A DNA stretch of 64,000 bases from Asterias amurensis. Its lineage: Eukaryota > Echinodermata > Asteroidea > Forcipulatida > Asteriidae. The notes under the pieces were generated by a model, which searched no databases, was not told the origin of the DNA, and saw only the letters and a list, made by a program, of their open reading frames with translations. The position numbers and the translations under genes were made by a program. The stretch covers positions 4,526,001 to 4,590,000 of the forward strand of contig NC_092663.1 of NCBI RefSeq assembly GCF_032118995.1, given 5' to 3'. This document shows, in pieces, positions 15,571-40,929 of this stretch; within the stretch, counting starts at the first letter, position 1, and every line of letters begins with the position of its first letter.

Positions 15571-15574
15571 TAAT

Positions 15575-15975
15575 ATAACCCCCTCCCCCCCCCCCCCCCC
15601 CAAACACCACCACCACTAAACTGGCCCCCGCCACCACAACGGCCCCCACCACCCAACCGATCTCCACCACCACAACGGCCCCCACCACCCAATCGGCACC
15701 CAACCAGCCCCCATCAACCAACCCCACCACCCCACTGACCCCCCATTACCCAACTGACCCCCACCACCACAACAGCCCCCACCACCCAACCGGTCTCCAC
15801 CACTACAACGGCCCCCACCACCCAACCGGTCTCCACCACTACAACGGCCCCCACCACCCAACCGGTCTCCACCACTACAACGGCCCCCACCACCCAATCG
15901 GCACCCAACTGACCCCCCACCGCCCAACTTGCCCCCCCCCCCCACCACCCAACCTGCCCCCTCACCCAACCGCAT
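15575..15975 (+). repeat. C-rich minisatellite, 36-bp unit
   Basis: Units of ACGGCCCCCACCACCCAACC plus GGTCTCCACCACTACA, three near-perfect copies at 15790-15900 with degenerate units around them, after a poly-C run at 15580-15600. Almost no G on this strand. Gly-rich minus-strand open frames are artefacts. Confidence 0.9.
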
Positions 15976-18540: not shown

Positions 18541-18949
18541 CTGTAACAGCCGTACTTGCGGTAAGCAGAGCCATGAAAGTGGGCCCAGTTAATCTGCATT
18601 GACCCCTATAATGGGCGGATATATCTTTGGTAATTACTTAAAAAATTAATGACTGTAAAAACCTAATGCAGGCGTTGATACAGTTTGACTTTTTGCGAAA
18701 CAATCCCTGTTCAAGGAATGTGGTTTTACAGATAAGGTTTCAAAAACATTTTAATCTGAGAAATGTTTCTGCATGAAACGTTTCTCAGATTGTGTATTCC
18801 AATTACAGATTGTTCTTCTTGCGTGGACAAAACCGCTCTAGATTTTAAAATTAATATTCAATATATATGTTTCTACACAATCGATGTTGTTATTTAGTTT
18901 TTATATTGATTGTATATACTTGTAATTTGGCCAGTGGATATCAAGGTTC

Positions 18950-19012
18950 TATGTTTTTAACGTGGACAATAAAATTATTCTAGTCTATTCTATTCTATTC
19001 TATTCTAATTTT
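18950..19012 (+). repeat. retroposon-like 3' tail with (TTCTA)n
   Basis: AATAAAATTATTCTAG is followed by TCTATTCTATTCTATTC. Short simple tails after AATAAA are common at 3' ends of some LINE and SINE families; no coding part was found upstream. Confidence 0.4.
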
Positions 19013-19019
19013 TTTTCAA

Positions 19020-20240
19020 ATTGTAATTTTTTTTTTCAGAAACATTTTCTTGGTTTTCTTGGTTTCTTTGCATGTTGCGCTGACTGAGTGAAGGGAACCT
19101 ACCCATCCACCCCAAGTACACCTGCCCTCCCACCGTTGACAACAGCCCTACTACAGTAGAATGTTTCATGGCAAGGTGCTGACTGGATGTCTGTATCCAG
19201 TGGCCTCTGATCTACATTAATCAGCTTGGATCATTGGATCATCGATGTTGGCGAGATAAGTTTAATCCTGTCAATCATTCAATATTTGAAGGTCATGCAG
19301 AAACTACCTGGGCCCCATTTCATGGCTCTGCTTTCTACAGAATTCTGCATTGGGATCGCCATTTTTCGCTTGAAGGACAAGTACCCATTTTCTGTAATCA
19401 GATAATGGGTTGATGTGGCTGCCTGCCAAAGGCCCGCGCCCTTGCATGCCTGCTTCTCGAACACGTTGTCAGTATACAGAAGGTGTCATTCATTTTGGCT
19501 TTTCCGCAGGGAATTATTCCACTGCTTTGTTTTGTAACAATGACGCCCCAGGCAAACTGATTGGCACTCTTATTATTTGATGCAAAAGTGTCTGAAATAA
19601 GTTTGTAACTTTGTTGTATCACTAAGCACAGAGCACACAATGTGCTGTCATGCGGTTTTGTGACTATTTTGTAATGGAGACCAAGTATGGTGGTTAACTT
19701 GTAATCCTGTGTGTTTTTGTCTTCTTGGATAGATGTGTAATGGTAAGGAGGTCTTTCCATTGGTAAGTTGACTTACAAAAAAATCATATAATATGATAAT
19801 TTTCGAGAATAAAATGGATTAGTTTAGATCTTAAATAAAAATAATTACCAAATTGATACCAGTACCAATTCCTCCATATAAATACTTGTATTTAATTCAA
19901 TTCAACTCTACATTACATTTAGTTCCTTAGTGAAAAGTGTGCATGTATAACCGATATATTGAACAAAGATATGTGAAGAACTAATCGAATAGTATATACA
20001 TGAGACACAATGAAAAAGGGGCAAATATACTTCTATCTGAAATACTTAATTGTCAAGGAAATAGCATTTGAAGATTGCATGTTTTTATTTCTTAAAAAGA
20101 AGCCTAGTGTTAATATACATATAGTCAAGAACAAAATATATTACCTATAGAAGGCAATCACAAAAGTCTATGTTCTTGTAGTTGTATTTTTTTATATGAT
20201 GTTCTAACACGGGGCAGTATTTATGCTTTTTGGAAGAATG
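19020..20240. other. intergenic or intronic stretch
   Basis: Contains short MITE and SINE pieces (19312-19470). Nothing else identifiable; the minus-strand open frame 19398-19760 has no support. Confidence 0.4.
19400..19470 (+). repeat. fragment of the tRNA-Glu-like SINE body
   Basis: TAATGGGTTGATGTGGCTGC through CTTCTCGAACACGTTGT matches 7824-7890. Confidence 0.75.
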
Positions 20241-20248
20241 TTCCACAG

Positions 20249-20340
20249 GTTCAACGCTCAGAGATTCACATCAGAGATGTGTCCTGCTGTAATATGAATG
20301 GCGTCTACTCATTAATAAGTTTACAGACTGGAACCTTGAG
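20249..20340 (+). CDS. exon of unrecognised gene
   Basis: The acceptor is CCACAG and the donor GAG/GTAAAA. Only one of three frames is open across the 92 bases; it reads VQRSEIHIRDVSCCNMNGVY and then SLISLQTGTL. The segment GATGTGTCCTGCTGTAATATG resembles part of the exon at 25425, which suggests an old exon duplication. Confidence 0.5.
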
Positions 20341-23300
20341 GTAAAACTTATCAATTAACTCGGCTTGATAACTCAATCTAAATGCCTTTTGTACTATGGC
20401 TCTTCATTTAATTCAATACTTTTACCAAAACTTTTACAAATGTAAGATTGTTTTATTGTGTTCAGCAATGTACCTTGAGGAGTTTACCTTGAGTCACAAC
20501 TGCCGTTGTTTTGTTTGCAGTCAAACAAAGACTGTTTGTTGTAAATCTTTTAAGACTTTCACAGCAAGTCAGTGCAGTGGTCAAACATTAGATCAAATAT
20601 TATTTCAAATTGCACTTGAATATTTGTTGATTATGAACAATTTTACACGCCTGCACGTCTAGAATATGTTCGACTAAATGGCTGAAATGCACATTTGTTT
20701 GGCAACTAAAATTTTTTTCTACTTCCACGATTTCAAAGGTTTCACTTGTCACAAGCCCTACATCTGCAAGTGCAAACTGAACAAAATTTGTTAACACTTT
20801 TCTTGAAAAGTTTGTGTAATCAGTTGGGTCTTTGAATATCCGTAAAAAAAATGGCCAAATGAAAGAATATATTGTCTGATGTAGTCATTGTTAAATGTCG
20901 GCAAGAAGATCATTGAAATCGTCGTCTTTGTGAAAACAAACATTACTTTGGTTGAACTTTGGAGACATGTTTGCAAATTTGACCAAGGACGTCATCCAGT
21001 GTTGACTGATTTATTACTGTTCCAGATTGTCAAGACATTATTCTGATGCAGTGTTCCTCCAACAACATGGACATTGAAAGCATCAATCTGGTGTGGCTTG
21101 GCTAGAAGAAATAATATCTGAGGAATGTATTACTTACCAAGCTGAAGTATGCAACTTAAGGTAAATTCTTTAAAATAAAAATTAAGTGTGTCTACTAATT
21201 TGCATATTCCCTATGCCGCGAGGCAGAAATGCTAAGACTTTTACACACAATAGTGCCCTCCACCGTCCTACACATAACGCCACACGACATGCCCATCACG
21301 GAGTCGTCCTCTTTTCTCTTAGCCGCAAGTGGGTGAGGTTGTGTTTTAAATCTGTTCCACAGTTCAACCGTTGTCTAAACCTTTCCTCGCTAAGAGTGCT
21401 TAAAAAGACTTGAAAAATTGTAGAGATGTAGTTGTTGTTAGTAGTGAGTTGTGAAATAAAAGAGGAGGTCTTCGGCTGTCACTACTGGAGTTACGTCCGT
21501 TTCCCCAGGACAGTCGGAGCTTTGGGGGGGGCTGCGCTGGTGACACTTCGTTGCCCGGCTTGCAGTCCTCCAGTCGGCCTACGCAGCCTCTGTCGGCTGC
21601 GTCGCCCGGAATACCCACCGATCAAAGAGGGGTTGCTACCCACTCCTTCTCTTCGGTAAGTGTGCGTAGGTCGGCCCAGTCGAAGGTCAAACGCCCCCGC
21701 AAGGCCAAGAAAACCGGTGCCGGGGCAGCAACCAAGAGAGGCAGGGCAAAAGGTGGCTCCGTTCCGGAGAAAACTGCCAACTCTCCCAGCACTGCCTCGG
21801 GGTCTCTGAAGCCAGAGGGCATCCCCCCTCCGCACGGCTCAGAAAACCCGGCCGGCACCGACGCGGTGGATTCCCCCACGACTGTTGGTGATGGCCTTTT
21901 GCGAGGCTTTAAGACCCACAAGGCACCCAGCCACGCCATAGGCTGTGGGGCGCTGGCCATGGGGAGAAGGATTATGGGTGCGGAGTCGGGTACCTGGGAC
22001 TCCCCCGGGATACCCCACCCACCCTCGTCTTCGAGTTTCACCTGTTGTTCGGGCATCCCTGTCACTCGGGTTTCCTCAGAGAGAGCCTCGGATTCGTCCT
22101 GTGAGCGGGTACCGAATAATTGGCAGAGGACCAGTAAAGACCGTCATCTTCGGTCGTCTGACGACTCCTCACCTGACGGCCATAGGAAGCATCATCGGGG
22201 TAGCGAGCCGCTATCCCGAGACGAATTCCTCACGGCTTCCCAGACCTTAGCGGCCTCAATATCCAGCCGGTGCAAGGTTCAGGAATTTTCCCAGTTTTCG
22301 GGACCGTACACCCAGCCCGACCAGTTCGGTCATGGCTGGGTGCGCACGGATCGAGGCGGCTTACCGTGCATGGTCAGCCGACCACCGGCCTCCCCTCCCA
22401 GCCACCGTCCCACAGTCACCACACAGGAGGTTGCATGGGGTATGATGGATCAGGGTGATGTGCGGTCACACACTGGTGCACGTCCACAATCCCAGACAGG
22501 GATTAGCATACACCCCTCCGGATCTTTTGTATCCGATCGGGATGCAGAACACCATGATTTGTTAGGCACAGCCCTGCCTTTGGGTGAACAATCAGTGAGC
22601 GTATCTGACCCCCCCGAGTCCGGCAAATCAGCCCTGGAAGAGGACGAGTTGACCACGTCAGTTCAATGACTTTCGATTGCCGAAACTGAATTGCGCCTTG
22701 TCCAAAGGGACATGGCCCGGGTTATGGGTCTCCCCGCCGAGGAAGTGGGGGATGCCCCCGATGAACAGCGGTCTTTTAAGAGGAGGATTGGCCCCGCTCC
22801 GAGGAGTGGGAATATTTTCCCGGCTATGCCACTCGACTGTGTATGCGCTGACTGCATCGAGGGCATTATGTCGGCATCCTCTTGGACGGCCTACCCCAAG
22901 CGGGCAGATTTATATTACCAATTTCCCCCCGGGGATTTCGATATATATATGTTTTTTTGACCCCAGTCCTACCGGACTCCGCAGCAGACAAGCTGACCGC
23001 AGACAGGGGGTCAACCTCTTCCAAACTTCCCTTTACCGACGCGGGGGAAGATGGAGGAAGTAGCCAGGAAGATAGACTCAGCATCGCGCTTTGTGACCTC
23101 CCAGTCTCCAGGCGGCCTCCCTCCGACGGACCCGTGTGAGGCCGTCTTCAGGAATTTTGTGGGTCCTGGGCTCAGATCACGTCCGACAGATTGGTCCTCG
23201 AGACGATCGAGCATACCACCCCTTGGCTGACCCCCCACCTTCAATGGTGGGTGGAGGACGCCTACCTCACACGTGGTCGAGTGTTCCGCCCGCCCAGACC

Positions 23301-25987
23301 GTCAGCGACCGCCGTCACCATCGCGTCTCTGTACGGCTGGGGGGGGGGGGCGACCCTCGACCAGATAGCGGGGGTGTGGGGCCCGGAACACCACTCGACC
23401 CACATCAGTGTCCTGGAAATGCTGGCGGTCTGGAATGCCCTCCAGCACTTCCGGACACAGCTGGTGGGGCCGGCCGTCCTGGTGCGCTCTGACAACGCTA
23501 CAAGTGGTAACTGTGTGCACTAGCCTGGGACCTAATCCACTGGTGCATACAGCAGGGGATCGCCCTGTTGGTGGTGTACATCCCGAGGAAGGAGAATGTA
23601 AGGCCAACGCTCTTTCCTGGGGCTGGATCAGCCCGACAGAGTGGTCCCTCCGCCCCTGTGTGGCCCAGTCGCTCTATCTGCTTATCGACCGACCTCATGT
23701 GGATCTGTTCGCCTCTCGGACGAAACAATCAACTGCCGATCTACTGCGCCAGGGGTTCCAACCCCGGGGCATGGTGGATCGATGCTCTGACTATGCGATG
23801 GGAGGGGCTGTTGGCATATGCCTACGTGCCCATCTCCCTCATTCCACTGGTGCTGACAGGATCACTGCAAAGTTCCCTTGATCGCCCCTTTTTGGCCCCG
23901 ACAGCCCTGGTTCCCACAGCTGGTCAGGCTCCTGGTGCACAGGCCGGTAGTTCTCCCACAACGCCCGGACCTCATATACCAGCCCGTGTCCGGAGTGGTT
24001 CATCCAACTCCGAGGGACCTGCACCTGCAGCGGTCCTTCGAGACGGGCTGCGGAAGTTGCCGCCCAGAAGGGCCTCAACCCGAAGAGATTATGACTGCCG
24101 ACTACGCCATTTCTTTAAATGGTGTAGGTGATGAGCTATTCATCCCGCCGATACTTCTGTAGAGGAAGTTGGGGATTTCCTCCTATATCTTTTTGATAGC
24201 GGGCTGGCAACGGCCACGGTGAAAAAATACCGTTCGGCCATTGCGGCAGTCCACGGAGGATTCGCCGACGGCTCGACAGTCTCGGATAACCGGGCGATTG
24301 GGCAGCTGACTAAGGGGATGTTTGTCACCCATCCCCCTAGCGTGCACTAACAAAACCCCCTTTCGAGCCACTGAGTGGGGCCACGCTGTTACATCTAACG
24401 GTGCAGGTTGCCTTTTTGTTAGCGGTCGCTACGTCTCGCCGACGTAGCGAGGTACACTCCCTTACAGTGGCGGCGGGGCACATCCGGTTGGAACCCGGAG
24501 GAGTCTGCCTGATCCCTACGGCGGGGTTTTTAGCCAAAAATCAATCCGCTGTCCGAACCAGATCTTTTTATTCCCGACCTTAAAGCCTTGCGGCGGACAA
24601 GCTTTGGTGCCCGGTACGGGCGCTAAAGTGGTACATCGATCGCACAAAGTCAATCCGAACCGGCATTTCCACCATTCCGACCAGCATCCCGCGATACAAT
24701 CGCGCGTTGGATAGTTACAGCCATCCGCTCGGTGTCGGGCGGATGGCCAGCGACCAATGGTCCAGTTCATGCCCACGAGGTACGGGGAGTGTCGGCCTCA
24801 TGGGCTTTCTTTAAAGGGGTCTCCATGAGTGACATAACAAGGGCGACCTCCTGGAAGAGCCCGTCCACGTTCTCTGACTGCTACCTGAAGGACGTTCTAC
24901 AGGTGGATGGGAGAGCGGGTAGAGCGGTTTTACAGGCGGCCAGCCAAGCCAGAACAAGCTCCACCTCGTCAGTCACGTGTTTAGGTGAGTTTTTCCACGG
25001 TAATACAGTGCTAACAATACTTATGTTTTGTTTACCCGTGGGCCGATACCCCCTGTACGTTTTGGGCATGGACCACTATCGGGCCTAGCCTTTCCTCGGT
25101 GTGAGTCTATGCAAATAAGTAATTCAACTCTACCGGTACGTAGAGTGAAGTAGACTCCCCCCCCCCTCCCACAGTAGTGTGGATGGGGTCTACGAACAAA
25201 GACTTACCGGTAGAGTATCCCTCCCTCCTTCCCCACATACTCGGTCCTTGGGTGCTTACATTTAGTAGGGCTCATCGAAAAGAGGACGACTCCGTGACGG
25301 GCATGTTGCGGGACTGTGGGTGGGGGGGGGATTTTGAGCTGTGCTGTATACAAATCAATGGCCTATTCGAGGTTTAGCCTTTGCCACATTTCAAAACAAT
25401 TTTTGGCTTGTTGTTGTGTATTAGATTATCATCTGGACTTGCTATGATGTATGCTCTGCTGTCAACATGGACCATAGAGATGCTATTGATGGATTCTTAT
25501 CTGAGGTCAGGAGTGTGACATCTTTGTACTTTCATCTACTCACCGCTAAGATGAACAGAGAAACAAGTGACTGATATGTGTATCTTTAAAGGTATAAACA
25601 ATCACAGATTGCAAATTATATTTGCAGTTTATTATTATTAAAAAATATATGCGTTTGGCTCGACTGGTATTTGGCAAACGGGTTTATGCCAGCCTGTTTG
25701 CACTGAATCAAATTTTGTTTAAAAATTCTCACATTCCCATTCAATTTTAAATCTGGTCTCTAGCTTGCTTTAATGTTTGAGTTTAAATTGTACTATTCTT
25801 TTACCCTTTTTACTTATCTATTAGACGTTCACCGAAAAGATTCAAATCGTTGGATGAGCAAGATTCCATGCCGTTTTACCTGGACCAGTTAAGGACCAGT
25901 TCCTCACAAAGTAGCAGTGATCTAACACGGGAAGCTTGTCTTCAGTCATCAAACCAAGTGCGCCGGATAAACAAGCCAACATTTTAA
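20249..25987 (+). CDS. unrecognised gene, 3' part (three exons)
   Basis: Exons 20249-20340, 25425-25505 and 25825-25987 join in phase (each junction completes an AGA codon), with AG acceptors and GT donors. The predicted C-terminal part reads VQRSEIHIRDVSCCNMNG, then a mildly hydrophobic stretch LAMMYALLSTWTIEMLL, then a polar tail RSPKRFKSLDEQDSMPF ... SSSQSSSDLTREACL ending RRINKPTF and a TAA. I do not recognise the family. The tail composition, clean splice sites and single usable frame argue for a real gene. A DIRS fossil lies in the intron between the first two exons. AATAAA at 26592 is a plausible polyadenylation signal. Upstream exons are not certain. Confidence 0.5.
21026..21122 (+). 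pseudogene. decayed alternative copy of exon 25425
   Basis: It follows an AG (TGTTCCAG) and starts ATTGTCAAGACATTATTCTG, resembling ATTATCATCTGGACTTGCTA at 25425. Both then contain CAACATGGAC and both end ATCTGAG. Here the base pair after the end is GA, not GT, so no donor exists. In the phase left by exon 20249 the frame closes at 21077. It reads as an exon duplicate that no longer splices, or as a short alternative terminal exon. Confidence 0.35.
21190..25375 (+). mobile_element. DIRS-type tyrosine-recombinase retrotransposon (fossil)
   Basis: A GC-rich block unlike its AT-rich surroundings. Parts: inverted terminal repeats (a shared core around 21285-21320 and 25262-25300, CACGGAGTCGTCCTCTTTT on one side and its complement on the other), a gag-like open region (about 21551-22669), an RNase H-like region (about 23190-23560) and a tyrosine-recombinase region (about 24060-24950). 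Inverted ends plus a tyrosine recombinase are typical of DIRS elements. I could not recognise a reverse transcriptase. It is a broken copy with several breaks, of moderate age, sitting in an intron of the unrecognised plus-strand gene. Confidence 0.82.
25425..25505 (+). CDS. exon of unrecognised gene
   Basis: The acceptor is GTATTAG and the donor GAG/GTCAGG; 81 bases. In the phase shared with its neighbours it codes for LSSGLAMMYALLSTWTIEML and then LMDSYLR, which could be a weak membrane segment. A second frame is also open through the donor to a stop near 25574, so the phase rests on the neighbouring exons. Confidence 0.45.
25825..25987 (+). CDS. terminal exon of unrecognised gene
   Basis: The acceptor is TCTATTAG; TAA ends at 25987. 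The 53 residues are polar and serine-rich: RRSPKRFKSLDEQDSMPFYL, DQLRTSSSQSSSDLTREACL, QSSNQVRRINKPTF. This is typical of a disordered cytoplasmic tail with RSP and SSS phosphorylation-like patches. It is the strongest evidence that this gene is real. Confidence 0.6.
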
Positions 25988-26712
25988 TATCGGTTAGAGC
26001 TTAATATCCTTGAACAAGGTGACTCACAACTTGGTATAATAACATGCAATAATTTGGGGAAAGGCATCTGTTTGATTCACCTGAGGATGTAAACAACATG
26101 GAACAGTTTATTTTGAGTCGTCTTCATTCTGGACAATAATGAAGCACTTGACCTTCTTCGTTCCTTTTTTAAAGCATGGGCTTATCACTAAAATACTTTG
26201 TTTATTCGAAAGGAAGTCAATTTATTTAGTATCTTGTAATAATATGCGGCTGCAGTTACTTATATTTTGGTTATATATAAATGTAGCATGTATAAGGTGT
26301 TTGGGTTCTCAATAACAAGGTTTTAATTGACATGTACCTGGTTTTGATTTTAGTCAATGAGTGTGCTTAATATTTGTTTGGCACACTGGGATAAGTAACT
26401 CTTGTTATTGTTCTAAAGTATATGTTGTGGGGGGAGATGACAACCTTCACGTGGTCCATCATATTCTAGACTTATGTCATCAAACCAATCTATGTAGCAA
26501 CATGCTATTTCTGTATAGTGATATATGTGTAATCCTTTTTTTGGTCTGGTACATGTAGTTAAACAGTATACATATAGCGCTTAAAATGTGAAATAAATAC
26601 ATATATAAGTAATATGGAATCAAAACCACCTGTGTGCTGTGGATTGTACACTGTTGAATTAACCCATTGTTATGAAAATTATTCCATTACATTGTGTAAA
26701 TATAAGTGTCAC

Positions 26713-27340
26713 ATCTAACAACTTCTCTTCATACGTCTAACAACTTCTCTCCATACGTCAACAACTTCTCTTCATACGTCTCACAACTTCTCTTCATACG
26801 TCTAACAACTTCTCTTCATACGTCTAACAACTTCTCTTCATACGTCTAACAACTTCTCTCCATACGTCTAACAACTTCTCTTCATACGTCTCACAACTTC
26901 TCTAATTCATACGTCTAATTTACTTCTCTTCATATGTCTGACGACTTCTCTACATACTAACAACTTCTCTCCATACGTCTAACAACTTCTCTTCATACGT
27001 CTAACAACTTCTCTCCATACGTCAACAACTTCATTTCATACGTCTCACAACTTCTCTTCTTACGTCTAACAACTTCTCTCCATACGTCTAACAACTTCTC
27101 TTCATACGTCTCACAACTTCTCTAATTCATACGTCTAATTTACTTCTCTTCATGTCTGACGACTTCTCTACATACTAACAACTTCTCTCCATACGTCTAA
27201 CAACTTCTCTTCATATGTCTAACAACTTCTCTCCATACGTCTACAACTTCTCTTCATACGTCTCACAACTTCTCTTCATACGTCTCACAACTTCTCTTCA
27301 TACGTCTAATTTACTTCTCTTCATACGTCTATTCAACTTC
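26713..27340 (+). repeat. 22-bp tandem repeat, left arm
   Basis: About 28 units of CTAACAACTTCTCTTCATAC plus GT, with a larger repeat of several units visible (the phrase TCTAATTCATACGTCTAATT recurs near 26900 and 27120). Confidence 0.9.
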
Positions 27341-27344
27341 TCTT

Positions 27345-27611
27345 CTTACGTTTATTTTTACTTCAATGTTACAGTTAATTTTTAATGTTTAACTTATCTA
27401 AACACAGTTGTAATAAAGTACATTTTATTGTATTTGCTTAATGAGAGTAAGAAATAAAGAAATATAACAGAAACAACTTGTATTAAAGAGTCCTTTATTT
27501 GAGTCTATATTTTAAATAAAATAAACCATATAGAGATAGTACAAACGTGAGATAAACGTTTTTTTAGAGGGGTCAAAGGTCAAAGTTCAGGGGTAAGGGG
27601 TTAGGGGTCAA
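27345..27611 (+). repeat. left inverted flank of the 28-bp array
   Basis: It pairs with 28131-28378 in inverted orientation. Shared blocks include AGTTAATTTTTAATGTTTAA, GAGTCCTTTATTTGAGTCTA and GAGGGGTCAAAGGTCAAAGT. Most differences are small indels and single bases, so the two flanks are either young or kept alike by conversion. Confidence 0.9.
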
Positions 27612-28134
27612 AGTCCTTTGCCAACGGTCCTTTGCCCACTCTCCTTTGCCAATGGTCCTTTGCCCACTCTCCTTTGCCAATGGTCCTTTGCCCACTCTCC
27701 TTTGCCAATGGTCCTTTGCCCACTCTCCTTTGCCAATGGTCCTTTGCCCACTCTCCTTTGCCAATGGTCCTTTGCCCACTCTCCTTTGCCAATGGTCCTT
27801 TGCCCACTCTCCTTTGCCAATGGTCCTTTGCCCACTCTCCTTTGCCAATGGTCCTTTGCCCACTCTCCTTTGCCAATGGTCCTTTGCCCACTCTCCTTTG
27901 CCAATGGTCCTTTGCCCACTCTCCTTTGCCAATGGTCCTTTGCCCACTCTCCTTTGCCAATGGTCCTTTGCCCACTCTCCTTTGCCAATGGTCCTTTGCC
28001 CACTCTCCTTTGCCAATGGTCCTTTGCCCACTCTCCTTTGCCAATGGTCCTTTGCCCACTCTCCTTTGCCAATGGTCCTTTGCCCACTCTCCTTTGCCAA
28101 CTGTCCTTTGCCCACTCTCCTTTGCCCACTGTCC
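27612..28134 (+). repeat. 28-bp minisatellite, about 19 copies
   Basis: Each unit is two related 14-mers, CCTTTGCCAATGGT then CCTTTGCCCACTCT. The copies are almost identical except at both edges, where the second 14-mer type recurs. The unit is not divisible by three, so all six frames stay open; the long open frames here are artefacts. Confidence 0.95.
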
Positions 28135-28378
28135 TCACCCCTGAACTTTGACCTTTGACCCCTCTTAAAAAAAACCGTTTATCTCACGTTTGTACTGTCT
28201 CTATATGGTTTATTCTATTTAAAATATAGACTCAAATAAAGGACTCTTTAGTACAAGTTGTTTCTGTTATACTTTATTTCTTACTCTCATTAAGCAAATA
28301 CGATAACACGTACTTTATTACAACTGTTTAGATAAGTTAAACATTAAAAATTAACTGTAAGATTAAAGTAAAAATAGA
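28131..28378 (-). repeat. right inverted flank of the 28-bp array
   Basis: The reverse complement of 27345-27611. It directly joins the right 22-bp tandem arm at about 28380. Confidence 0.9.
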
Positions 28379-28384
28379 CATAAG

Positions 28385-31290
28385 AAGAGAAGTTGTTAGA
28401 CGTATGTAGAGAAGTTGTCAGACATATGAAGAGAAGTAAATTAGACGTATGGAGAGAAGTTGTTAGACGTATGGAGAGAAGTTGTTAGACGTATGGAGAG
28501 AAGTTGTTAGATGTATGGAGAGAAGTTGTTAGACGTATGGAGAGAAGTTGTCAGACGTATGAAGAGAAGTAAATTAGACGTATATATGAAGAGAAGTTGT
28601 TAGACGTCTAAAGAGAAGTTGTTAGACGTATGGAGAGAAGTTGTTAGACGTATGAAGAGAAATGGTTAGACGTATGGAGAGAAGTTGTTAGATGATGGAG
28701 AGAAGTTGTCAGATGTATGAAGAGAAGTTGTTAGACGTATGGAGAGAAGTTGTTAGACGTATGAAGAGAAGTTGTTAGACGTATGGAGAGAAGTTGTTAG
28801 ACGTATGAAGAGAAGTGGTTAGACGTATGGAGAGAAGTTGTTGTTAGATGATGGAGAGAAGTTGTTAATACGAATGAAGAGAAGTAAATTAGATGTAAGA
28901 AGGGGAAGTTGTTAGACATATGGAGAGAAGTTGTCAGACGTAAGGAGAGAATTTGTTAGACGTATGAAGGGAAGTGAATTAGATGTATGGAGAGAAGATA
29001 TCAGATGAAAGGAGAGAAGTTGTTAGACGTATGAAGAGAAGTAAATTACCATAAGAAGGGAAGTTGAAGTTTGACGTTAAGCATTTGTGCACGATAAAGT
29101 GAAAGCAGTCTTTTCATTACAAGAATCTGTACAAGATGACTCCATTGATCCGTGGTCTTCTCAGTTCTTTAATGTAAGCTCCATGACGGCGCATAAAGAT
29201 TGTACCCATGGTCCTGTAAAGACAAAAGATAAAGATTTATGGTTACAAAAAATCAACTTCGAATCAAGATCAAATAGTATGTCTTACTCAAGTGTACTAC
29301 TTGACACAAGGGAAGTGGTAGTTAAACGTATAAAGAAATTGGATAAGACATATGGAGAAAAATGGTACTTAGACTTATGGAGAGAAGTTGTTAGACTTGT
29401 TAAGAGAAGCGAATTAGATGTATGGAGAGAAGTGAATTAGATGTAAGGAGGGAAGTTATTAGAAGGTGGGAGAGAAGTAGTTAGACGTACGAAGAGACGT
29501 GAATTGGACGTACGAAGAGACGTGAATTAGACATAAGAAAAGAAGTTGTTGGACGTAAGGAGAGAAGTTGTTACAGGTTTGAAGAGAATTAAGTTAGAAG
29601 AAGGAGAGAAGTTGTTAGACATATGGAGAGAAGTAGTCAGACGTAAGGAGAGAAGTCGATAGATCTACGGAGAGAGTTGTCAGATGTATGAAGAAAGGTG
29701 AATAAGATATAAGAAGCGAAGTTGTCAGACGTAAGGCGAGAAGTTATTAGATGTATAAAGAGAAGTGAATTAGAAGTAAGGAGAGAAGTTATCAGACGTA
29801 TGGAGAGAAGTTGTCAGACGTAAGGAGAGAAGTTGTCAGACGTATGGAGAGAAGTCACTGTTAGATATATGGAGGGAAGTAATTTAGACATATAGAGAGA
29901 AGTGGTTGTTAGACATAAATTTAAAGGGAAGTTGAAGATTACCATGAGGAGGGAAGTTGTAGTTTGACGTTAAGAATTTGTCCACGATAAAGTGAAAGCA
30001 GTCTTTTCATTACAAGAATCTGTGCAAGATGACTCCATTAATCCGAATTAGCGAATTAGACAAACGGAGAGAAGTTGTCAGACGTATGAAGAGAAGCGAA
30101 TTAGACGTTGTTAGATAAGTTGTTAGACGCATGAAGAGAAGTTGTTGACGCATGAAGATAAGTTGTTAGCATATGGAAAGATGTTGTTAGAAGCATGGAG
30201 AATGGTGTTAGAAGATGGACAGAAGTTGTTAGACATACAAAGAGAAGTTGTCAGACATATGGAAAGAAGTTTTTAGAAGCATGGAGAATGTTGTTAGAAG
30301 ATGGAGAGAAGTTGTTAGACATATGAAGAGAAGTTGTCAGACATATGGAAAGAAGTTGTTAGGGCATGAAGAATGTTGTTACACGTATGGAGAGGAGTTG
30401 TTAGACTCATTCAGAGAAGTTGTTAGATGTATGGGGAGAAGTGGTTGTTTAGATGAATAGAGAGAAGTTGTTAGATGTACGGAGGGAAGTGGTTGTTAGA
30501 TGTATATAGACGTATGGAAAGAAATGGTCAGACAGATTAAGAGAAGGGAATTAGTTGCAAGGAGAGTAGTTGTTAGATGTATGGAGAGAAGTGGTTTGGA
30601 GGGAAGTGATTTAGACATACAGCCAAAAGTGGTAGTTAGACACATGGAGAGCAGTTGTTAGACGTAAGGAGAGAAATGGTTGTTTCACTTTATAGAGAGA
30701 AAGGAATTAGAAGGATGGAGAGAAGTTGTCAGACAGATGAAGAGAAGAGAAGAGAATTAGACATAAGGAGTGTAATTGTTAGGGTTAGGAATGTAAAGAG
30801 AGAAGTGGTTATAGATGTATAGAGAGAAGCGAATTAGACCAATGGAGAGAAGTTGTCAGACAGATGGAGAGAATTTTTTAGACGTGTGGAGGGAAGTGAA
30901 ATAGACGTATGGAGAAGTGGAAGTTGGACGTATGGAGAGAAGTGATTTAGATGTACAGAGAAAAGTGGTTGTTTGTCTTTTGGAGGAAAGTTTCAGACAG
31001 ATGAGAGGTGAATGAGGAAGTTTTCAGATGTATGGAGAGATCTGTTAGACGTAAAGAGAGAAGTGGTTTAGGCGTATGGAGGGAAGTGAAATAGACGTAT
31101 GGAGAGAAGATGTTAGGCGTAAGGAAAGAAGTGGTAGGTTAGACGTATGAGGGAAGTGGTTGTTAGATAGAGAGAAGTTGCTAGACAAATGGAGTGAAGT
31201 GAATGTTAGACTGATGGAAGGAAGTGGTATTTAGATTAAAGAGAGAAGTGATTTAGACATATGGAGTGAAGTGGTTGTCAGACATAAATT
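28385..31290 (-). repeat. 22-bp tandem repeat, right arm, degenerate
   Basis: Over a hundred degenerate units of the reverse complement of the left-arm repeat. It is cleaner near the centre and decays outward. It is broken three times by copies of a different segment (about 29060-29330, 29945-30050, 31290-31555) that starts near GCAGTCTTTTCATTACAAGA. Confidence 0.85.
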
Positions 31291-31555
31291 TAAAGGCAAG
31301 TTGGAGATTACCATGAGGAGGGAAGTGGTAATTTGACTGTAGAATTTAACCACAAAAAAGTGAAATCAGTCTTTTCATTAGAAGAATCTGTACAAAATGA
31401 CTCCCTTGATTCTTGGTCTTCTCTGTTCTTTAACGTCAAGAAGATTGTACCCATGGTCCTGTAAAGACAAAAGATAAAGATATATGTCTGGTTACAAAAA
31501 AGCCGGTTACGAAAATCCAAGATTTGATAGTATGTGAACTCAAGTATATTACATG
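29060..31555 (+). repeat. three copies of a non-satellite segment within the right arm
   Basis: Copies at about 29060-29330, 29945-30050 and 31290-31555 share AAAGTGAAAGCAGTCTTTTC and ACAAGAATCTGTACAAGATG. Copies 1 and 3 keep an open frame (VFSLQESVQDDSIDPWSS and VFSLEESVQNDSLDSWSS), but most of their differences change the residue, so coding constraint is not supported. Confidence 0.5.
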
Positions 31556-31734
31556 AAATGTTGATGTAGAACTCAAACTTGTTTAATAAGTTCCAGTACA
31601 GTGTCTTTTGTACACTTTAGGTTTCAAAAACAACTCCAAGTTTTGATAACCATTGTGTCTTCCACCTACAAGCTTTGTGAGATGACTGTCATCTTAGTGT
31701 AAAAGTGAACAAAACTGTAGTGAGCTTTTTGTGA

Positions 31735-32105
31735 GGCTGCTTACAAGCCCAGCCTCTGCCTGCCAACGAGCAAAGCCTCTGCCTGCCAACAAGCCAAGCC
31801 TCTGCCTGCCAACAAGCCCAGCCTCTGCATGCCAACGAGCCCAGCCTCTGCCTGCCAACGAGCCAAGCCTCTGCCTGCCAACGAGTCAAGCCTCTGCCTA
31901 TCCATGGACCCAGCCTCTGCTTGCCCGAGAACCCAGCCTCTGCCTGCCCTGAAAGCCCAGCCTCGCCTGCCCAAGAGCTCAGCCTCTGCCTGCCCCAAAA
32001 GCCCAGCCTCTGCCTGCCCAAGAGCCCAGCCTCTGCCTGCCCAAGAGCCCAGCCTCTGCCTGCCCAAGAGCCCAGCCTCTGCCTGCCGAAAGCTCAGTCT
32101 CTAGA
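31735..32105 (+). repeat. 23-bp minisatellite, copy A
   Basis: About 16 units built on CCCAGCCTCTGCCTGCC followed by AACGAG or CAAGAG. Open frames reading repeated ASACP and QPLPA in all registers are artefacts of the repeat. Confidence 0.92.
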
Positions 32106-32299
32106 TGCACCGAGAGACCAGCCAAAAACATATGCTTTGGGAAACTTTCGCAGCCGACACAACAATGGCAAGTTTTCAAGGACTCAACCTACATGTGCAT
32201 GGGCCAAATTTAAGAGACGTCACCAATGTGAGTAATTTAAGAGTTTAAAATCATTGCGCAGGGTTTCAACGCTTAGAAGAGTTCACAGTTTCAACATAC

Positions 32300-32427
32300 C
32301 TTAGAAAAGGATGGAGTGATGCAAAGCTGTCTCAAATATGACAATCCAAGTTGAGCTTGATAAAAACATCTTCTATCGAAGGAAGCTTTTGTCCATGATA
32401 GATACTGCACTTCAACCAGTGAATAAC
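32300..32427 (-). pseudogene. exon-like cassette copy 1
   Basis: On the minus strand 128 bases lie between TTTGCAG and AAG/GTATGTTG. One frame reads SIYHGQKLPSIEDVFIKLNL followed by DCHIWD. All six copies keep both splice-like signals. Function unknown. Confidence 0.5.
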
Positions 32428-32576
32428 CTGCAAACAAAAAAAACAGTTTAAATATCGTTAGGACCCAAGCATTCAGGGACTAGACTACATGAGCCTCAAG
32501 GGTTAGAATTTAAAAAATAACTAGGTTGGCAAAACTTGTGTGACTGGCAAACAAGTGTTGAAAAAATAAAGTCACT

Positions 32577-32735
32577 GGAAAGCAAAGAAAACCACGCAAT
32601 TTCAAGCAAATTTGTGTAGATCATTGTATTCTACTTTTACAACATCTTTCTAACCATATCGATTTGATAACAAACAGTTTACAGAATGCTTTTCAAGGAC
32701 CAACTCGACCGATCCAAGGCAACGTGTTCCTTTAA
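32577..32735. mobile_element. half of fold-back MITE, family D
   Basis: Right half only (AAAACCACGCAATTTC to CCAAGGCAACGTGTTCCTTT). The same half occurs at 38713-38878 in block B, so it was present before the block duplicated. Confidence 0.8.
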
Positions 32736-33166
32736 GTTAGATGAGCAAGTTTTTAGTTGACTAAAAAAAAAACATAACGCTTTGAGAAACTTTAGCAGAT
32801 GTCACAGCATTGGCTCAGGAATAAATTGTTCCTTGAAGTTTCAAAAGGTTGGCAATTTTTTGAATGACTTGAGAACAAGTTTGAGGGAAATTGTGCTCAG
32901 CACAACATTATAGAGTTGAGATGACACAGATTCCCCCCGGGTTTTCAGTTTGAGAGATCAAAGAAAATTAGAATTTCAAGTGTTACATGGCCTTAAAAAA
33001 CATATGTAGTGCCTTTGGAAAACTTATCAGCTGACACAATGTTGACGAATTGTACTACACGTGCTTCGGGCAAATATTAGAGACGTCACCATTTGGAGCA
33101 ATTGAAGAGTTGAAAATCATTGCACGGGGCTTCAACACTAAGAAGATTTCACATGTTTCAACATAC

Positions 33167-33294
33167 CTTAGAAAAGAAAGGAGTGATGCAAAGCTGTCCC
33201 AAATATGACAATCCAAGTTGAGCTTGATAAAAACATCTTCTATCGAAGGAAGCTTTTGTCCATGATAGATACTGCTCTTCAACTAGTGAATAAC
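33167..33294 (-). pseudogene. exon-like cassette copy 2
   Basis: 128 bases, nearly the same as copy 1, with acceptor TTTGCAG and donor AAG/GTATGT. It is 867 bp from copy 1, the same spacing as copies 4 and 5. Confidence 0.5.
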
Positions 33295-33653
33295 CTGCAA
33301 ACAAAATAATAAACATTGTCATCAACATTTCATTGAGTGTCACCATACTTTTGAATAATTTAATAAACAGCACAACATTGGTTTTTTAACAATTTAAGAG
33401 TTCAAATATCATTAGGCCCGAAACATTCAGGGACTAGACTACATAAGCCTCAAGGATTAGAGTTTTAAAAACAACTAGGTTGGCAACATTTGTGGGACTG
33501 GTGAACAAGTTTGAAAAAAATATAATCCATGCACAGCAATGCTTTCAAGCGTTGAGACGGCATTGAATCCACTGGGGTTGAGTTTGACAGTTCAAAAACA
33601 TTAGACTTGCAAGTGACTGAATAACAAGTTTTGGGAAAATTCAGCAGACAAGG

Positions 33654-36176
33654 TAGTCTTGGTTCCAAGACCATTGGTGTTGCGCGGTCACACACAACCA
33701 ACGTTCCGATTATGCACGGCAAAAACTGTCCACGCTTGTAATGAATGAACGCTAGCGGGCGCTGTTTCTCTGATTTACGGATCTCACCATGTCCTGTGCT
33801 CACCATGGTCTTGGATATTTGCAAATTGAAGGCGTGGCCAGACTATGTAAATTACTTTTAATGTGTGCAATATTCATATCACGTGACGAATTGAAGATGA
33901 CTATTCAAACTAGATCGAGTCAAAGGTCAATATGATCGGCGGTCTATTTTTAATAATCTTTGTTTAAAGAGTGATTCCGTGGTCATTATAGGCCTATTAA
34001 AAGGAAAACAGTGAAATTTTAAGTATAGGTACCTATTCAGATTATGGATACGTGACGATTTGAAATCGTAAATAATGGTCAAAAATCGAACGTAAAATTA
34101 GCATTCAGAGAGTCCGTGTATCGGACGCTGTATGGCCCCACGGCGTGGAGCAATCGGAACGTGAAATAAGCCTTGTGGAATATCACGTACCGCCCATGCC
34201 GTGTCTCGTGGGGGTTGGAGGTGTTACATCCCAGGTGCTATGAACTCCCAGCTTGCGGGTATCGAATCCGTTGTTTCTTATGATCGCAACGTTCCAATAT
34301 GCTCCATTTTAATTCATGGCCCCTAATTTCTTTTTGTTATGAGTTTTCAGGTAATTTTGATGATGTCAAAACGTAGGAATATCGCATATTGTTATATTGA
34401 CAGTGTTATTGTGTGAGTAGCTTAAAAAAATTATGAGAATTTTTTATAAAAGGTTTAAATAAAAATAATGCTAAAACAAAATTCCCTCAAAGCATAATTT
34501 TGTCAAACAAAGTATTATTTTTTTAATTCTGTGAATGAAGAGTTATTTTTGAGGTAATGATTAAACTGGGCAACTAGTGGAATTTAATGACCTGACTATT
34601 CGCCTCAAATAACTGGGAGTTGAATAGCAGTAGTCGCCGCTGGACAAGCAATCAAAACTCGAAATTTCTCATGAGTTATTCCAAAAGATATTGTTACGAC
34701 TACATTAAAAAAAAATGTTATATGGTTACGTTCCAAGCTACGCAGCTACTCGGCTACGTTTACGTTCCAAGATACGCTTAGGTCTACGTTCCTTCAAGTT
34801 ACACTATAATATCAAAAGGTATGTTTTCAAGCCCGAGTCAAGCTACGCTTACATTCCAAGATACGCAGCTACGTTTACGTTCCAAGATACGCATATAGGT
34901 CTACGTTCCTTCAAGTTACACTATAATATCAAAAAGTACACTTCCAAGCCCGAGTCAAGCTATGCCTACGTTCAAAGATACGCAGCTGCGTTTATGTTCC
35001 AAGATGCTACACTTCAGTCCAAGATATGCTTACGTTCCAAAAGATGTCAACGTTCCAAGCTACACAGCTACTCAGCTGCGCTTACAGATCTGCTTACATT
35101 CCTTCAAGTTACGCCATAATATCAAAAGGTACGCTTTCAATCCCATGTCAAGTTACGCTTACGTTCCAAGATACGCAGCTACGAATTATGTTCCAAGATA
35201 TGCTTACGCTCCACCAAAAGATACTGTTACGTTCCAAGCTACGCAGCTACTCAGCTACGCTTATACACTCCAAGATACTAATAGGTTACGCTACAATATC
35301 AAAAAGTACGCTTTCAATCCCGAGTCAAGCTACGCTTACGTTCCAAGATATGCAGCTACGGTTACGTTTCAAAATACGTTCTCACAAAGACGCTTTTGAA
35401 TCCCTCAAGATTTCTTTCCCCCAAGATTAAAAAACTTTCACTGTGAATAACACTACAGGGCCCACCAGTTAATATCTGTTTGGCAGAAAATACTGTACAA
35501 AATTTCTTTACTATCCAAAAATTTACTTGGGCACTACAAAATTTCAAATTTAATTAAAAATTGGCTGGCAACCAGTTTCTGCTAAGCAATACTATTTTGT
35601 GCTAACTATAAGCAAATTGTTTAGCCAATACAGGCTTCATCAGTGTGGGCCCTGGCACGTCGGGAGCATAACGCCACGATCGCATTTCAAGCTGCATATC
35701 ATGGCAATGCAGGTGTCTGGATCTGGACATTATACACAGAAATGTTTGTGCTGGTACCACAAACCTTTCTTTATCGTATTTCCACCCTGTGTCAAAGTTT
35801 CAAATCCTACTGATCTGGACATTATTATACTCCGATAAAAACATATATACCCACACACAGAGTAAAGCAAAAGTCATGCAACGGAATTACTGCATGCATT
35901 GTACACTACATGCACAACACTGATGAATTATTCATGAGCCAACCGCAACGCAGCCTCTGATTGGCTCCACCGGAAAGTCGGGGGAGATTTGCCGAAAAAC
36001 AATAAAAAAGTTAAGACCCGTCGTTGCAAATATTCAAGACCATGGTGAGATCTAAATCAGAGAAACAGAGCGCCCGCTAGCGTTCGTTCATTACAAGCGT
36101 GGACAGTTTTTGCCGTGCCATCGGAACGTTGGTTGTGTGTGACCGCGCAACACCAATGGTCTTGGGACCAAGACTA
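33654..36176. mobile_element. MULE-like non-autonomous DNA transposon, 2.5 kb
   Basis: Inverted repeats of about 175 bp begin TAGTCTTGGTTCCAAGACC at 33654 and mirror at 36176. The exact 9-bp direct repeat CAGACAAGG flanks it (33645-33653 and 36177-36185). The duplicated block to the right has the unoccupied site at 39787-39795, which confirms the borders. The interior has a degenerate tandem region (34715-35400) built on ACGTTCCAAGATACGCAGC and no recognisable transposase. Confidence 0.88.
34715..35400 (+). repeat. degenerate tandem repeat inside the MULE-like element
   Basis: Repeated phrases TACGTTCCAAGATACGCAGC, CCTTCAAGTTACACTATAAT and ATATCAAAAGGTACGCTTTC recur in the same order about four times with unequal spacing. 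The overlapping open frames rich in Y, R and S are a product of the repeat, not genes. Confidence 0.7.
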
Positions 36177-36882
36177 CAGACAAGGCAGCAATGGCGCAGG
36201 ACTGAATTGTACATTGAATTCTCATGAAGCTTGAAATTTTTCCGGAACGGAAGACATGTTTGGGGAAAATTTATGTATAGGAGAATGCCCGAGGTGCCCG
36301 CCATTCATGGGCACTGAACAGCAACGCTTTCCAGCGTTGAGATGACACAGAATCTTCTTTGGTTTAATAGATTCAAACATTAGATCTGCAGGTTTTTTAA
36401 AGGAATCGAAAACATGTTCTTTGGAAGACTTAAGCAGATATTACAACATTGGCTCAGGAATAAATTGTATTTTGGAAACAGGTTGGTTCGCTTTTGAAGG
36501 GCTAAAAAACATGCTTTGGGAAATTTATTCACGGCCAAACATCCTCTTTAGAGAGTTGAGACGACACATCAATTAAAAGGGTTAAGTTTTAGGATTAAAT
36601 AACAACTACATTTGCAAATTTGTAGATGACTTTCAAAAAGGTGCTTTGGGAAACTTTAGAAGACGTCACAGCATTGTCTCAGGAATAAACTGTGGATGAA
36701 GTATCATTAGGTTGGCAAGTTTTACAGGTCTAGAAAACCTGCTTTGGGAAAATGTATGCACTGCACAACAGCTTTAGGGAGTTGAAACGGCACAGAATCC
36801 ACTGAGTTCAAAAACATTACACATGCAAGTTTTTAAGGGACTAAAAAAACATGTGCTTTGGGGAAACTTGAGAAGATGTCAC

Positions 36883-37500
36883 AGCCCAGCCTCTGCCTGC
36901 CAACGAGCCCAGCCTCTGCCTGCCAACGACCCAGCCTCTGCCTGCCAACGAGCCCAGCCTCTGCATGCCAACGAGCCCAGCCTCTGCATGCCAACGAGCC
37001 CAACCTCTGCCTGCCCGAGAGCCCAGCCTCTGCCTGCACGGAAGCCCAGCCTCTGCCTGCCCTGAAAGCCCAGCCTCTGCCTGCCCAAGAGCCCAGCCTC
37101 TGCCTGCCCGAGAGCCCAGCCTCTGCTTGCCCGAGAGCCCAGCCTCTGCCTGCCCTGAAAGCTCAGCCTCTGCCTGCCCAAGAGCCCAGCTTCTGCCTGC
37201 CCGAGAGCCCAGCCTCTGCCTGCACGGAAGCCCAGCCTCTGCCTGCCCTGAAAGCCCAGCCTCTGCCTGCCCAAGAGCCCAGCCTCTGCCTGCCCGAGAG
37301 CCCAGCCTCTGCCTGCCCGAGAGCCCAGCCTCTGCCTGCCCGGAAGCCCAGCCTCTGCCTGCCCTGAAAGCCCAGCCTCTGCCTGCCCTGAAAGCCCAGC
37401 CTCTGCCTGCCCAAGAGCTCAGCCTCTGCCTGCCCGAGAGCCCAGCCTCTGCCTGCCCGAGAGCCCAGCCTCTGCCTGCCTGAGAGCCCAGTCTCTAAAT
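36883..37500 (+). repeat. 23-bp minisatellite, copy B
   Basis: About 27 units of the same repeat as 31735-32105, in the same order of variants (AACGAG units first, then CCGAGAG, CGGAAG and CTGAAAG units). Both arrays are followed by the same flank (GATGCACCGAGAGACCAGCC), so they are paralogous. Confidence 0.92.
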
Positions 37501-37717
37501 GCACCGAAAGCTCAGTCTCTAGATGCACCGAGAGACCAGCCAAAAACATATGCTTTGGGAAACTTTAGCAGCCGACACAACAATGGCAAGTTTTCAAGGA
37601 CTCAAACTACATGTGCTTGGGCCAAATTTAAGAGACGTCACCAATGTGAGTAATTTAAGAGTTTAAAATCATTGCGCAGGGTTTCAACACTTAGAAGAGT
37701 TCACAGTTTCAACATAC

Positions 37718-37847
37718 CTTAGAAAAGGATGGAGTGATGCAAAGCTGTCTCAAATATGACAATCCAAGTTGAGCTTGATAAAAACATCTTTTCGTGAAGG
37801 AAGCTTTTGTACATACATGTTAGATTTTGCTCCAATCAGTAATTAAC
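37718..37847 (-). pseudogene. exon-like cassette copy 3 (diverged start)
   Basis: The half next to the donor matches the other copies; the half next to the acceptor has been replaced or has diverged (TACATACATGTTAGATTTTG on the plus strand), though a TTTGCAG-like acceptor is still present. Confidence 0.45.
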
Positions 37848-38441
37848 CTGCAAACCAAATAACATATTACATTGTCATTTAAACTTTTTATCATAATGTC
37901 ATTATGCTTTGGGAAATTCATGAAACTATACAGCATAGGCTCGTTAACTCTTTGAGAAATATCATTAGAGCCAGTGTTGAAGCCATGGTGGGCTGTGCTT
38001 GGAGTACTGTAGTTCTCTCAGTGACCCCAATTTGTTTCTATGTTACAGTATACGATTCTTTTCTACTTAGTCACATTCTCTTGCCCCATCTTTTGTATTC
38101 ATGCGAACAAGCATGTCACACTGCTTGTATAAAAAACAAACCCCAATTCTCATTGTTCGCTGCTCGTTGTATTCGTGGACGCCGCCATGACAGACAGCTA
38201 CCGCAGAGTAACACGGATGACTCAATACGGCACTAAAAATGTACTACTTTCGCTTGCTGTGCGCACGCATCGCCTGACGTAATGTTACCGTATTTGGTTA
38301 TTCGGAAAACTGAACACAGCGGAAAGTTGAAACCGCCACACCAGCGAAACAATGTTGGCAACTTTTCAAGGACTGTAGGTTAACAATTGATAATCATTGC
38401 ACAAGGTTTCAACACTAAGAAGAATACATGTTTCAACATAC

Positions 38442-38569
38442 CTTAGAAAAGGAAGCAGTGATGCAAAGATGTCCCAAATATGACAATCCAAGTTGAGCTT
38501 GATAAAAACATCTTCTATCGAAGGAAGCTTTTGTCCATGATAGATACTGCACTTCAACCAGTGAATAAC
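38442..38569 (-). pseudogene. exon-like cassette copy 4
   Basis: 128 bases with both splice-like signals; block-B partner of copy 1. Right of it the sequence follows the flank of copy 1 base for base, including a partial fold-back MITE. Confidence 0.5.
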
Positions 38570-38712
38570 CTGCAAACAAAAAAAACAGTTCAAATATCGT
38601 GAGGACCAACAACATTCAGGGACTAGACTACATGAGCCTCAAGGGTTAGAATTTAAAAAACAACTAGGTTGGCAAAACTTGTGTGACTGGCAAACAAGTG
38701 TTGAAAAAATAA

Positions 38713-38878
38713 AGTCACTGCAAAGCAAAGAAAACCACGCAATTTCAAGCAAATTTGTGTAGATCATTGTATTCTACTTTTACAACATCTTTCTAACCAT
38801 ATCGATTTGATAACAAACAGTTTACAGAATGCTTTTCAAGGACCAACTCGACGGATCCAAGGCAACGTGTTCCTTTAA
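38713..38878. mobile_element. half of fold-back MITE, family D (block B partner)
   Basis: Matches 32577-32735 nearly base for base and ends at the same internal point. Confidence 0.8.
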
Positions 38879-39308
38879 TTTAGATGAGCAAGTTTTTAGT
38901 TGACTAAAAAAAAAACATAACGCTTTGAGAAACTTTAGCAGATGTCACAGCATTGGCTCAGGAATAAATTGTTCCTTGCAGTTTCAAAAGGTTGGCAATT
39001 TTTGAGTGACTTGAGAACAAGTTTGAGGGAAATTGTGATCAGCACAACGTTATAGAGTTGAGATGACACAGATTCCCCCCTGGTTTTCAGTTTGAGAGAT
39101 CAAAGAAAATTAGAATTTCAAGTTTTACATGGCCTTAAAAAACATATGTAGTGCCTCTGGAAAACTTATCAGCCGACACAATGTTGACGAATTGTACTAC
39201 ACGTGCTTCGGGCAAATTTAAGAGACGTCACCATTTGGAGCAATTGAAGAGTTGAAAATCTTTGCACGGGGCTTTAACACTAAGAAGATTTCACATGTTT
39301 CAACATAC

Positions 39309-39436
39309 CTTAGAAAAGGATGGACTGATGGAAAGCTGTCTCAAATATGACAATCCAAGTTGAGCTTGATAAAAACATCTTCTATCGAAGAAAGCTTTTG
39401 TCCATGATAGATACTGCTCTTCAACCAGTGAATAAC
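39309..39436 (-). pseudogene. exon-like cassette copy 5
   Basis: 128 bases; block-B partner of copy 2, 867 bp from copy 4. Reads GYSLVEEQYLSWTKAF in one frame and FIKLNLDCHI in another. Confidence 0.5.
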
Positions 39437-40793: not shown

Positions 40794-40920
40794 CTTAGAA
40801 AAGGAAGGAGTGATGCAAAGCTGTCCCAAACATGACAATCCAAGTTGAGCTTGATAAAAGCATCTTCTAATGTAAGAAGAACTGTCCATGATAGATACTG
40901 CTCTTCAACCAGTGAATAAC
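40794..40920 (-). pseudogene. exon-like cassette copy 6, single open frame
   Basis: 127 bases, one base shorter in the middle than the others. That makes one frame continuous: GYSLVEEQYLSWTVLLTLED, AFIKLNLDCHVWDSFASLLP, FLR, then GTATGT. It may be the least changed copy, or the length difference may be chance. No family recognised. Confidence 0.5.
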
Positions 40921-40929
40921 CTGCCAACA

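Follow-up and report, generated by a model that had tools for sequence, protein, structure and literature searches.

How does a genome come to carry several kilobases of tandem arrays in opposite orientation, facing one another across a satellite, and is such a structure a transposon, a dispersed satellite or a site of recurrent rearrangement? The question is raised by a 64,000-nucleotide stretch of the sea star Asterias amurensis (contig NC_092663.1, here C16, positions 4526001–4590000; hereafter the window, within which positions are counted from its first letter), where a core minisatellite separates two inverted arms. The answer towards which we lean, with modest confidence, is a fold-back inverted duplication, seeded in the core and remade or converted at different times. 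What is observed is that at a series of paralogous loci the outer flanks are common, and the left arm, which is of variable length and age, lies between the left flank and the core.

The nested structure and its paralogues

The first-pass annotation described an order of array X, flank Y, array Z, inverse of Y and inverse of X, and this nested inverted structure is real. It begins with a left arm on the plus strand, made up of the 22-bp array X (26714–27351; 29.0 units according to Tandem Repeats Finder, TRF) and the flank Y (27352–27611; about 260 bp), and continues through the core minisatellite (27614–28126; 28 bp × 18.3 with 99% matches by TRF), which within the window has a single orientation. 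Beyond the core, on the minus strand, lie Y′ (28133–28374), which carries minus-strand AATAAA motifs and is the 3′ end of a larger module, R, and the 22-bp array of R that adjoins it (28375–29042; TRF). X is an inverted copy of that adjoining array, and Y an inverted copy of Y′. The inner flanks do pair at about nine bases in ten (93.1% over 247 columns, and 95.1% over the first ~210 positions of Y); the left arm as a whole (26714–27611) matches the inverted right arm at 86.2% (905 aligned columns), while the inner 900 bp of the two arms are 91.5% alike. The opposite orientation of the outer 22-bp arrays likewise held good, but the single right-hand array of 2.9 kb did not, since the right side is split by blocks of a ~270-bp sequence, B, that interrupts its 22-bp arrays; TRF places the reverse-complement arrays at 28375–29042, 29369–29907 and 30066–30494, with weaker ones to 31276. 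Nor does the structure stop at ~31.3 kb, as had been supposed: its repeats run on to ~41.4 kb, an outer end of R that was set by eye together with the last self-match.

When the whole genome (491.5 Mb in 23 contigs) was searched with Y, as the first-pass annotation had suggested, Y proved not to be single-copy, and several copies have a similar nested order. The 23 matches fall at 11 loci, each covering 224 or more bases of the Y query, plus three places that hold short pieces alone (C10 6.03, C11 15.686 and C11 14.248, giving contig and position in Mb). The family comprises C16 3.34, C16 4.55 (the window), C21 11.88, C17 6.09, C10 3.95, C6 22.46 and, on C11, the loci at 14.26, 15.70, 16.76, 18.93 and 20.73. 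All the matches listed for the 22-bp array (all 19 candidates scored) lie at these same 11 loci, and at five of them long Y is found on both sides of the core. Chance is excluded as an explanation by the length of the structure and by its recurrence at 11 loci of the same genome.

Common flanks and the transposon question

If the family were one of Foldback-type (Mutator-like) transposons, with long inverted termini of tandem repeats and a satellite core, its members would have landed in unrelated sites, and it is here that the proposal meets its main difficulty, since the flanks are common. To the left lies module F (19700–26711, plus strand), whose position relative to the core is the same at eight of the 11 loci, the window included; module G (41741–42400), the right flank, is found outside R at three loci besides the window. 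The earlier remark that the structure sits just after a poly(A) signal was a useful one, as F has its 3′ end here, indicated by a poly(A)-type AATAAA near 26591. Among the matches listed, the end of F (query 25700–26713) has homologues at C17, C11 14.26, C6, C11 18.93 and C11 20.73 (the last inverted), and its beginning (query 19700–21250) at the same five loci together with C11 15.70 and C16 3.34; the latter query also matches two F-only places on C10, and a short piece of the former lies at C11 15.685 beside a short remnant of Y. F was not seen at C21, C11 16.76 or C10 3.95 among the best 40 of 95 and the best 40 of 211 candidates for the two queries respectively, and its last kilobase is not listed at C16 3.34, C11 15.70 or C11 16.76 (best 40 of 95). 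G recurs at C16 3.350M, at C17 6.112M and at both ends of C11 16.76 (16.771M on the plus strand and 16.734M on the minus); at C11 15.70 and C6 the only match is to a sub-piece that has dispersed copies elsewhere too, and for the remaining loci no match is listed among the best 40 of 219 candidates. Outer sequence being common to the copies in this way, the whole F–core–R module was therefore duplicated, probably as a large segment.

Two further points concern F itself. A 60-bp part of it (26423–26485), excluded from the counts of F, is a dispersed repeat whose many matches, mostly of 82–86% identity, form arrays with regular spacing on C8, C7, C6, C2 and other contigs, the copies often being ~205 and 255 bp apart. 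The idea that F is an old, diverged left arm was rejected, masked positions 14001 to 26713 of the window giving no match to R at E ≤ 1.

Some observations do favour the transposon reading: nested inverted 22-bp arrays surround a non-coding middle, so that long terminal inverted repeats containing tandem repeats are present, Y recurs at 11 loci, at five of them as a long copy on each side of the core, and the layout is like that of Tetris, an element of Drosophila virilis which has defined ends and target duplications of 8–10 bp (PMC4079207). The likeness takes in tandem-repeat inverted arms, an inner domain, a variable non-coding middle and the growth of satellite from the repeats; the structure in A. 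amurensis differs from it in having common outer flanks, no target duplication that could be found and no fixed arm length (PMC4079207). At corresponding junctions the arm ranges from 67 bp to many kilobases. Short target duplications, which the first-pass annotation had named as support for a transposon, were looked for in the window, and the longest candidates, of 5 and 6 bp when the ends were given slack, resemble the control, in which 100 random right ends gave a mean maximum of 5.1 and four of them reached at least 7; no target-site duplication of 8–10 bp was found at either possible right end in the window, the true right end being uncertain. There is in addition no Pfam family at its cut-off in the six frames of 31.6–41.5 kb. 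Common flanks and the lack of a target duplication thus led us to judge a Foldback transposon very unlikely, and the Foldback-type architecture noticed at first is probably not that of a transposon. The alternative of a replication or recombination hot spot, also raised at first, fits better, in that inverted arms of differing length and age share the same centre at six loci.

Left arms of differing length and age

All six loci tested have inverted pairs about the core, with an inverted flank copy across a spacer that is not itself duplicated, and the left arms among them differ widely. That of C11 14.26 amounts to 68 aligned columns (67 bp), that of C21 to ~0.3 kb (375 columns, including part of the core), that of C11 15.70 to ~3.0 kb (2982 columns) and that of C16 3.34 to ~3.6 kb, its outer end being judged from its resemblance to R at other loci. 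At C11 16.76 the left arm covers 2849 columns in letters and ~21 kb overall, the outer part being taken from search coordinates: R-type sequence can be followed leftward as far as 16735415 and rightward as far as 16769669, G lying past each of these points. (For loci other than the window, outer arms and most F–core junctions are positioned from search coordinates alone.) The short arm at C21 abuts a 48-bp array (TAGACTTTTTCAAGCAAAAATTGACAAGTTCACAAGGCTATAGCCTTG; positions 5756–7369 of locus sequence L010), which has weak relatives in the window at 49688–49817. The arms of C11 15.70 are 99.5% identical, with 15 mismatches and two gaps (9 bases) spread along 2.97 kb; those of C21 are 97.8% alike over 312 compared bases, and, in the inner 900 bp, those of C16 3.34 and C11 16.76 are 95.5% and 94.1% alike, the last with 13 gaps.

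In the window F aligns to its C6 paralogue up to base 26711, the junction with the inverted left arm falls at 26712–26714, and F ends ~130 bp short of the stretch common to C6 and C11 14.26; at C11 14.26, which has the shortest arm, the end of F is intact. The arm junction is sharp both here and at the left end of C11 15.70. A single Y is found at five loci (C6, C17, C11 18.93, C11 20.73 and C10 3.95), of which the first four all have F, although the stretch from F to the core was read in part and collapse of an arm in the assembly is possible there.

The two groups of loci also differ in the core. Left-arm loci have core units of the CCTTTGCCCAC kind, of 14, 28, 37 or 44–46 bp, while C6, C17, C11 18.93 and C11 20.73 have long, near-perfect arrays of a 23-bp unit; a left arm is accordingly present at all six CCTTTGCCCAC-type loci and at none of the four 23-bp loci (C10 3.95 being left out), though as the loci are related this is not an independent statistic. 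The locus C10 3.95 has no satellite core, and in its place (L017 ~4400–4880, C10:3.951M) lies sequence that by eye resembles reverse transcriptase of Penelope type or of long interspersed nuclear elements. At C16 3.34, C11 15.70 and C11 16.76 there are inverted core units, arranged head to head, which may postdate the duplication event. The possibility that the core is a genome-wide satellite was not supported, as core queries match almost only family loci: the 28-bp query six of them (all six candidates scored), and the 23-bp query C6, C11 18.93, C11 20.73, C17, C10 6.03 (where the match is an old remnant) and a single stretch of 97 bp at C11 11.80 (again all six candidates scored). These searches skip simple repeats and very common words, and the rarity of the core is thus unproven.

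Fold-back copying after a break would account for the variable-length inverted copy, for the core as its loop and for the loss of the neighbour's end. In outline, the window holds one copy of a duplicated module in which F, on the plus strand, and R, on the minus strand, converge with their 3′ ends on the core satellite; the left arm, lying between F and the core, would be the 3′ end of R duplicated in inverted orientation. A break beside the core would first expose the end that carries the core and R; this end would fold back on inverted satellite units, the core forming the loop or axis of the fold, and would then prime outward copying of R over a variable distance; finally the new end would be joined to what remained of F, part of F being lost. 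The copying would thus run from R to the left arm. For C21 and C11 16.76, because no F was seen there, which arm would be the copy can be suggested only by analogy with the other loci.

Several observations weigh against this account, and the first two of them, on C16 and on C11, would allow palindromes that predate the split of the loci. The two left arms on C16 are sisters, their Y sequences being 98.6% alike, compared with 97.1% and 95.1% to their own right arms, and in the inner 900 bp the window left arm is 94.5% like the other C16 left arm as against 91.5% for its own pair (at C16 3.34, unlike the window, the own pair is the closer over this length, at 95.5%). On C11, the own pair of 16.76 is 99.0% alike in Y and 98.2% in B, yet its left arm reaches 99.5% (Y) and 98.9% (B) to an arm of 15.70. 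In a midpoint-rooted tree of Y (16 sequences, ~210 positions) all the left-arm loci form one clade, with the single-Y loci outside it. The relation between arm length and loss of F is moreover drawn from five loci, and the searches on which the distribution of the flanks depends scored the best 40 of 95 and of 211 candidates for F and of 219 for G.

Some palindromes may therefore be older than the split of their loci and have been trimmed, converted or rebuilt later. Taken further, this becomes a serious rival to the fold-back reading, if in our estimation a doubtful one: a single ancestral palindrome would underlie all six left-arm loci, deletions having trimmed its left arm and gene conversion having made some pairs look young. 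The single Y clade, the sisterhood of the C16 left arms and the fact that neither Y nor B tells C11 16.76 arms apart from C11 15.70 arms would all be expected on this basis, and the association with the CCTTTGCCCAC-type core would fit a single switch. However, the fullest F goes with the shortest arm, the opposite of the pattern expected had deletions begun in F and run on into a long arm, and the arms of C11 15.70 share an array layout unlike that of C11 16.76 (9–13 gaps, or 116–200 gap bases, between the two loci in the inner 900 bp), so that conversion of a whole 3-kb arm would be needed.

One might also ask whether inverted read chimaeras, or arms collapsed or duplicated in assembly, could have produced the whole pattern. 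Half-palindromes do enter long near-perfect 23-bp arrays, which are hard to assemble, a missing arm may be a collapse and array lengths may be wrong; indeed both the length of every array and the apparent lack of a left arm where there is a long 23-bp array hinge on the assembly. But over their inner 900 bp the window arms show 8.5% divergence, unlike those of a read chimaera, no runs of N occur in the window or in 13 loci of 10 kb, and a paralogue of F aligns at the junction as far as base 26711, all of which makes an artefact most improbable. As a separate matter, C11:18912685–18971408 and C11:20701568–20745869 form an inverted pair of modules ~1.8 Mb apart, with 99.4% identity between arm stretches over 4,157 compared bases (12 gaps, 430 bases in total), and this pair is a candidate substrate for a large inversion, or else an assembly oddity.

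The fold-back reading finds partial parallels elsewhere. In ape sex-chromosome palindromes one arm is converted by the other, and near-identical arms about a centre are also seen at C11 15.70, where conversion may act; the window differs in that its arms are 91.5% alike in the inner 900 bp and its centre is a minisatellite. Origin-dependent inverted-repeat amplification (ODIRA) yields a triplication with an inverted middle. In ODIRA strand switching at a fork gives inverted copies, and it is in the inverted copy that the likeness lies; here, by contrast, there is a single inverted copy, together with loss of the neighbour's end. A further parallel is with human fold-back inverted duplications, in which a broken end folds back and copies itself, so that original and inverted copy, the latter of no set length, are separated by a spacer that is present once; the fold-back reading shares these features (PMC3907307). 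Compared with the human cases, the arms described here are interstitial and mostly of 0.07–4 kb, a tandem satellite serves as spacer, a neighbouring module takes the place of the telomere at the far end, and the copies are paralogous loci of one assembly (PMC3907307). Among the papers listed in literature searches, whose coverage mostly left out subscription papers, none on such a structure was seen.

A bolder version of the fold-back reading, which we offer tentatively and as a joint claim, is that the satellite between the converging modules could be a recurrent germline hot spot of fold-back at six paralogous loci; the inverted copies, ranging from 67 bp to a whole-module palindrome, would then be independent or repeatedly renewed, overwriting the 3′ end of the neighbour, and a switch of the core from the 23-bp to the CCTTTGCCCAC type would be what made a locus prone to them.

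Module R, other features and significance

The right-hand module, R, is more complex than a simple array. Block B lies at 29060–29330 on the minus strand, is common to several loci and has a minus-strand splice-acceptor-like CTTTACAG; further copies on that strand lie at ~29908–30063 (partial) and ~31277–31600, with more degenerate 22-bp arrays of R between the blocks (29369–31276, minus strand; TRF). There follow a 23-bp array, S (AGCCCAGCCTCTGCCTGCCAAAG; 31746–32102, plus strand; TRF), with a second at 36883–37541, and the outer part of R (32237–41410, minus strand), which consists of tandem units each having an exon-like segment of ~128 nt whose minus-strand borders are AG and GT; the segment recurs, on that strand, at 32299–32440, 33166–33306, 37717–37859, 38441–38582, 39308–39448 and 40793–40932. 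Lying within R at 33654–36176 is a transposon-like insertion of 2,523 bp, with inverted ends of ~150 bp starting TAGTCTTGG, a 9-bp target duplication (CAGACAAGG) and a paralogous empty site in the window at 39787–39795, which makes it a genuine transposon-like contrast to the palindrome.

Both R and F look transcript-like, with AATAAA motifs and AG/GT-bounded repeats, and R was considered as a protein-coding gene, as its open 42-residue exon-like segment and block B resembled exons. It is not called one here, because of the Pfam result given above and because no coding constraint was seen in block B: in 11 hand-picked copies (of 27 rows) non-synonymous differences outnumber synonymous ones in all three frames, with raw ratios of 2.9–6.0 (counts, not values per site). 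Relatives of the exon-like segment occur at C17:2821376–2835447 and C17:4866357–4879998, an inverted pair ~2 Mb apart; several have longer open frames, one (L063) being embedded in a different tandem repeat, and they are perhaps a better preserved gene.

Elsewhere in the window there are four tRNA-Asn(GTT) genes within a 313-bp tandem repeat (53414–54528), a fifth tRNA-Asn at 3951–4023 and a weaker tRNA-family match at 59666–59738. Fragments at 23568–25088 and 48345–48683 resemble tyrosine-recombinase retroelements (DIRS-like by eye), and at ~24.1 kb Pfam gives only a sub-threshold match to Phage_int_SAM_1.

One practical lesson is a warning: inverted arms of tandem repeats around a satellite core, even in multiple copies, should not be taken for a Foldback transposon when their outer flanks are alike. 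Transcription across the palindrome would, it is predicted, yield a long hairpin RNA. More generally, work on the birth of palindromes has mostly dealt with isolated events, in tumours, patients or yeast, while here one genome holds ~11 paralogous copies of one junction, with no visible arm or with arms of 67 bp to ~21 kb and of differing ages. Such a series of copies is natural material on how palindromes form and grow, in which the order of core change, arm growth, loss of the neighbour and homogenisation is testable largely by comparison.

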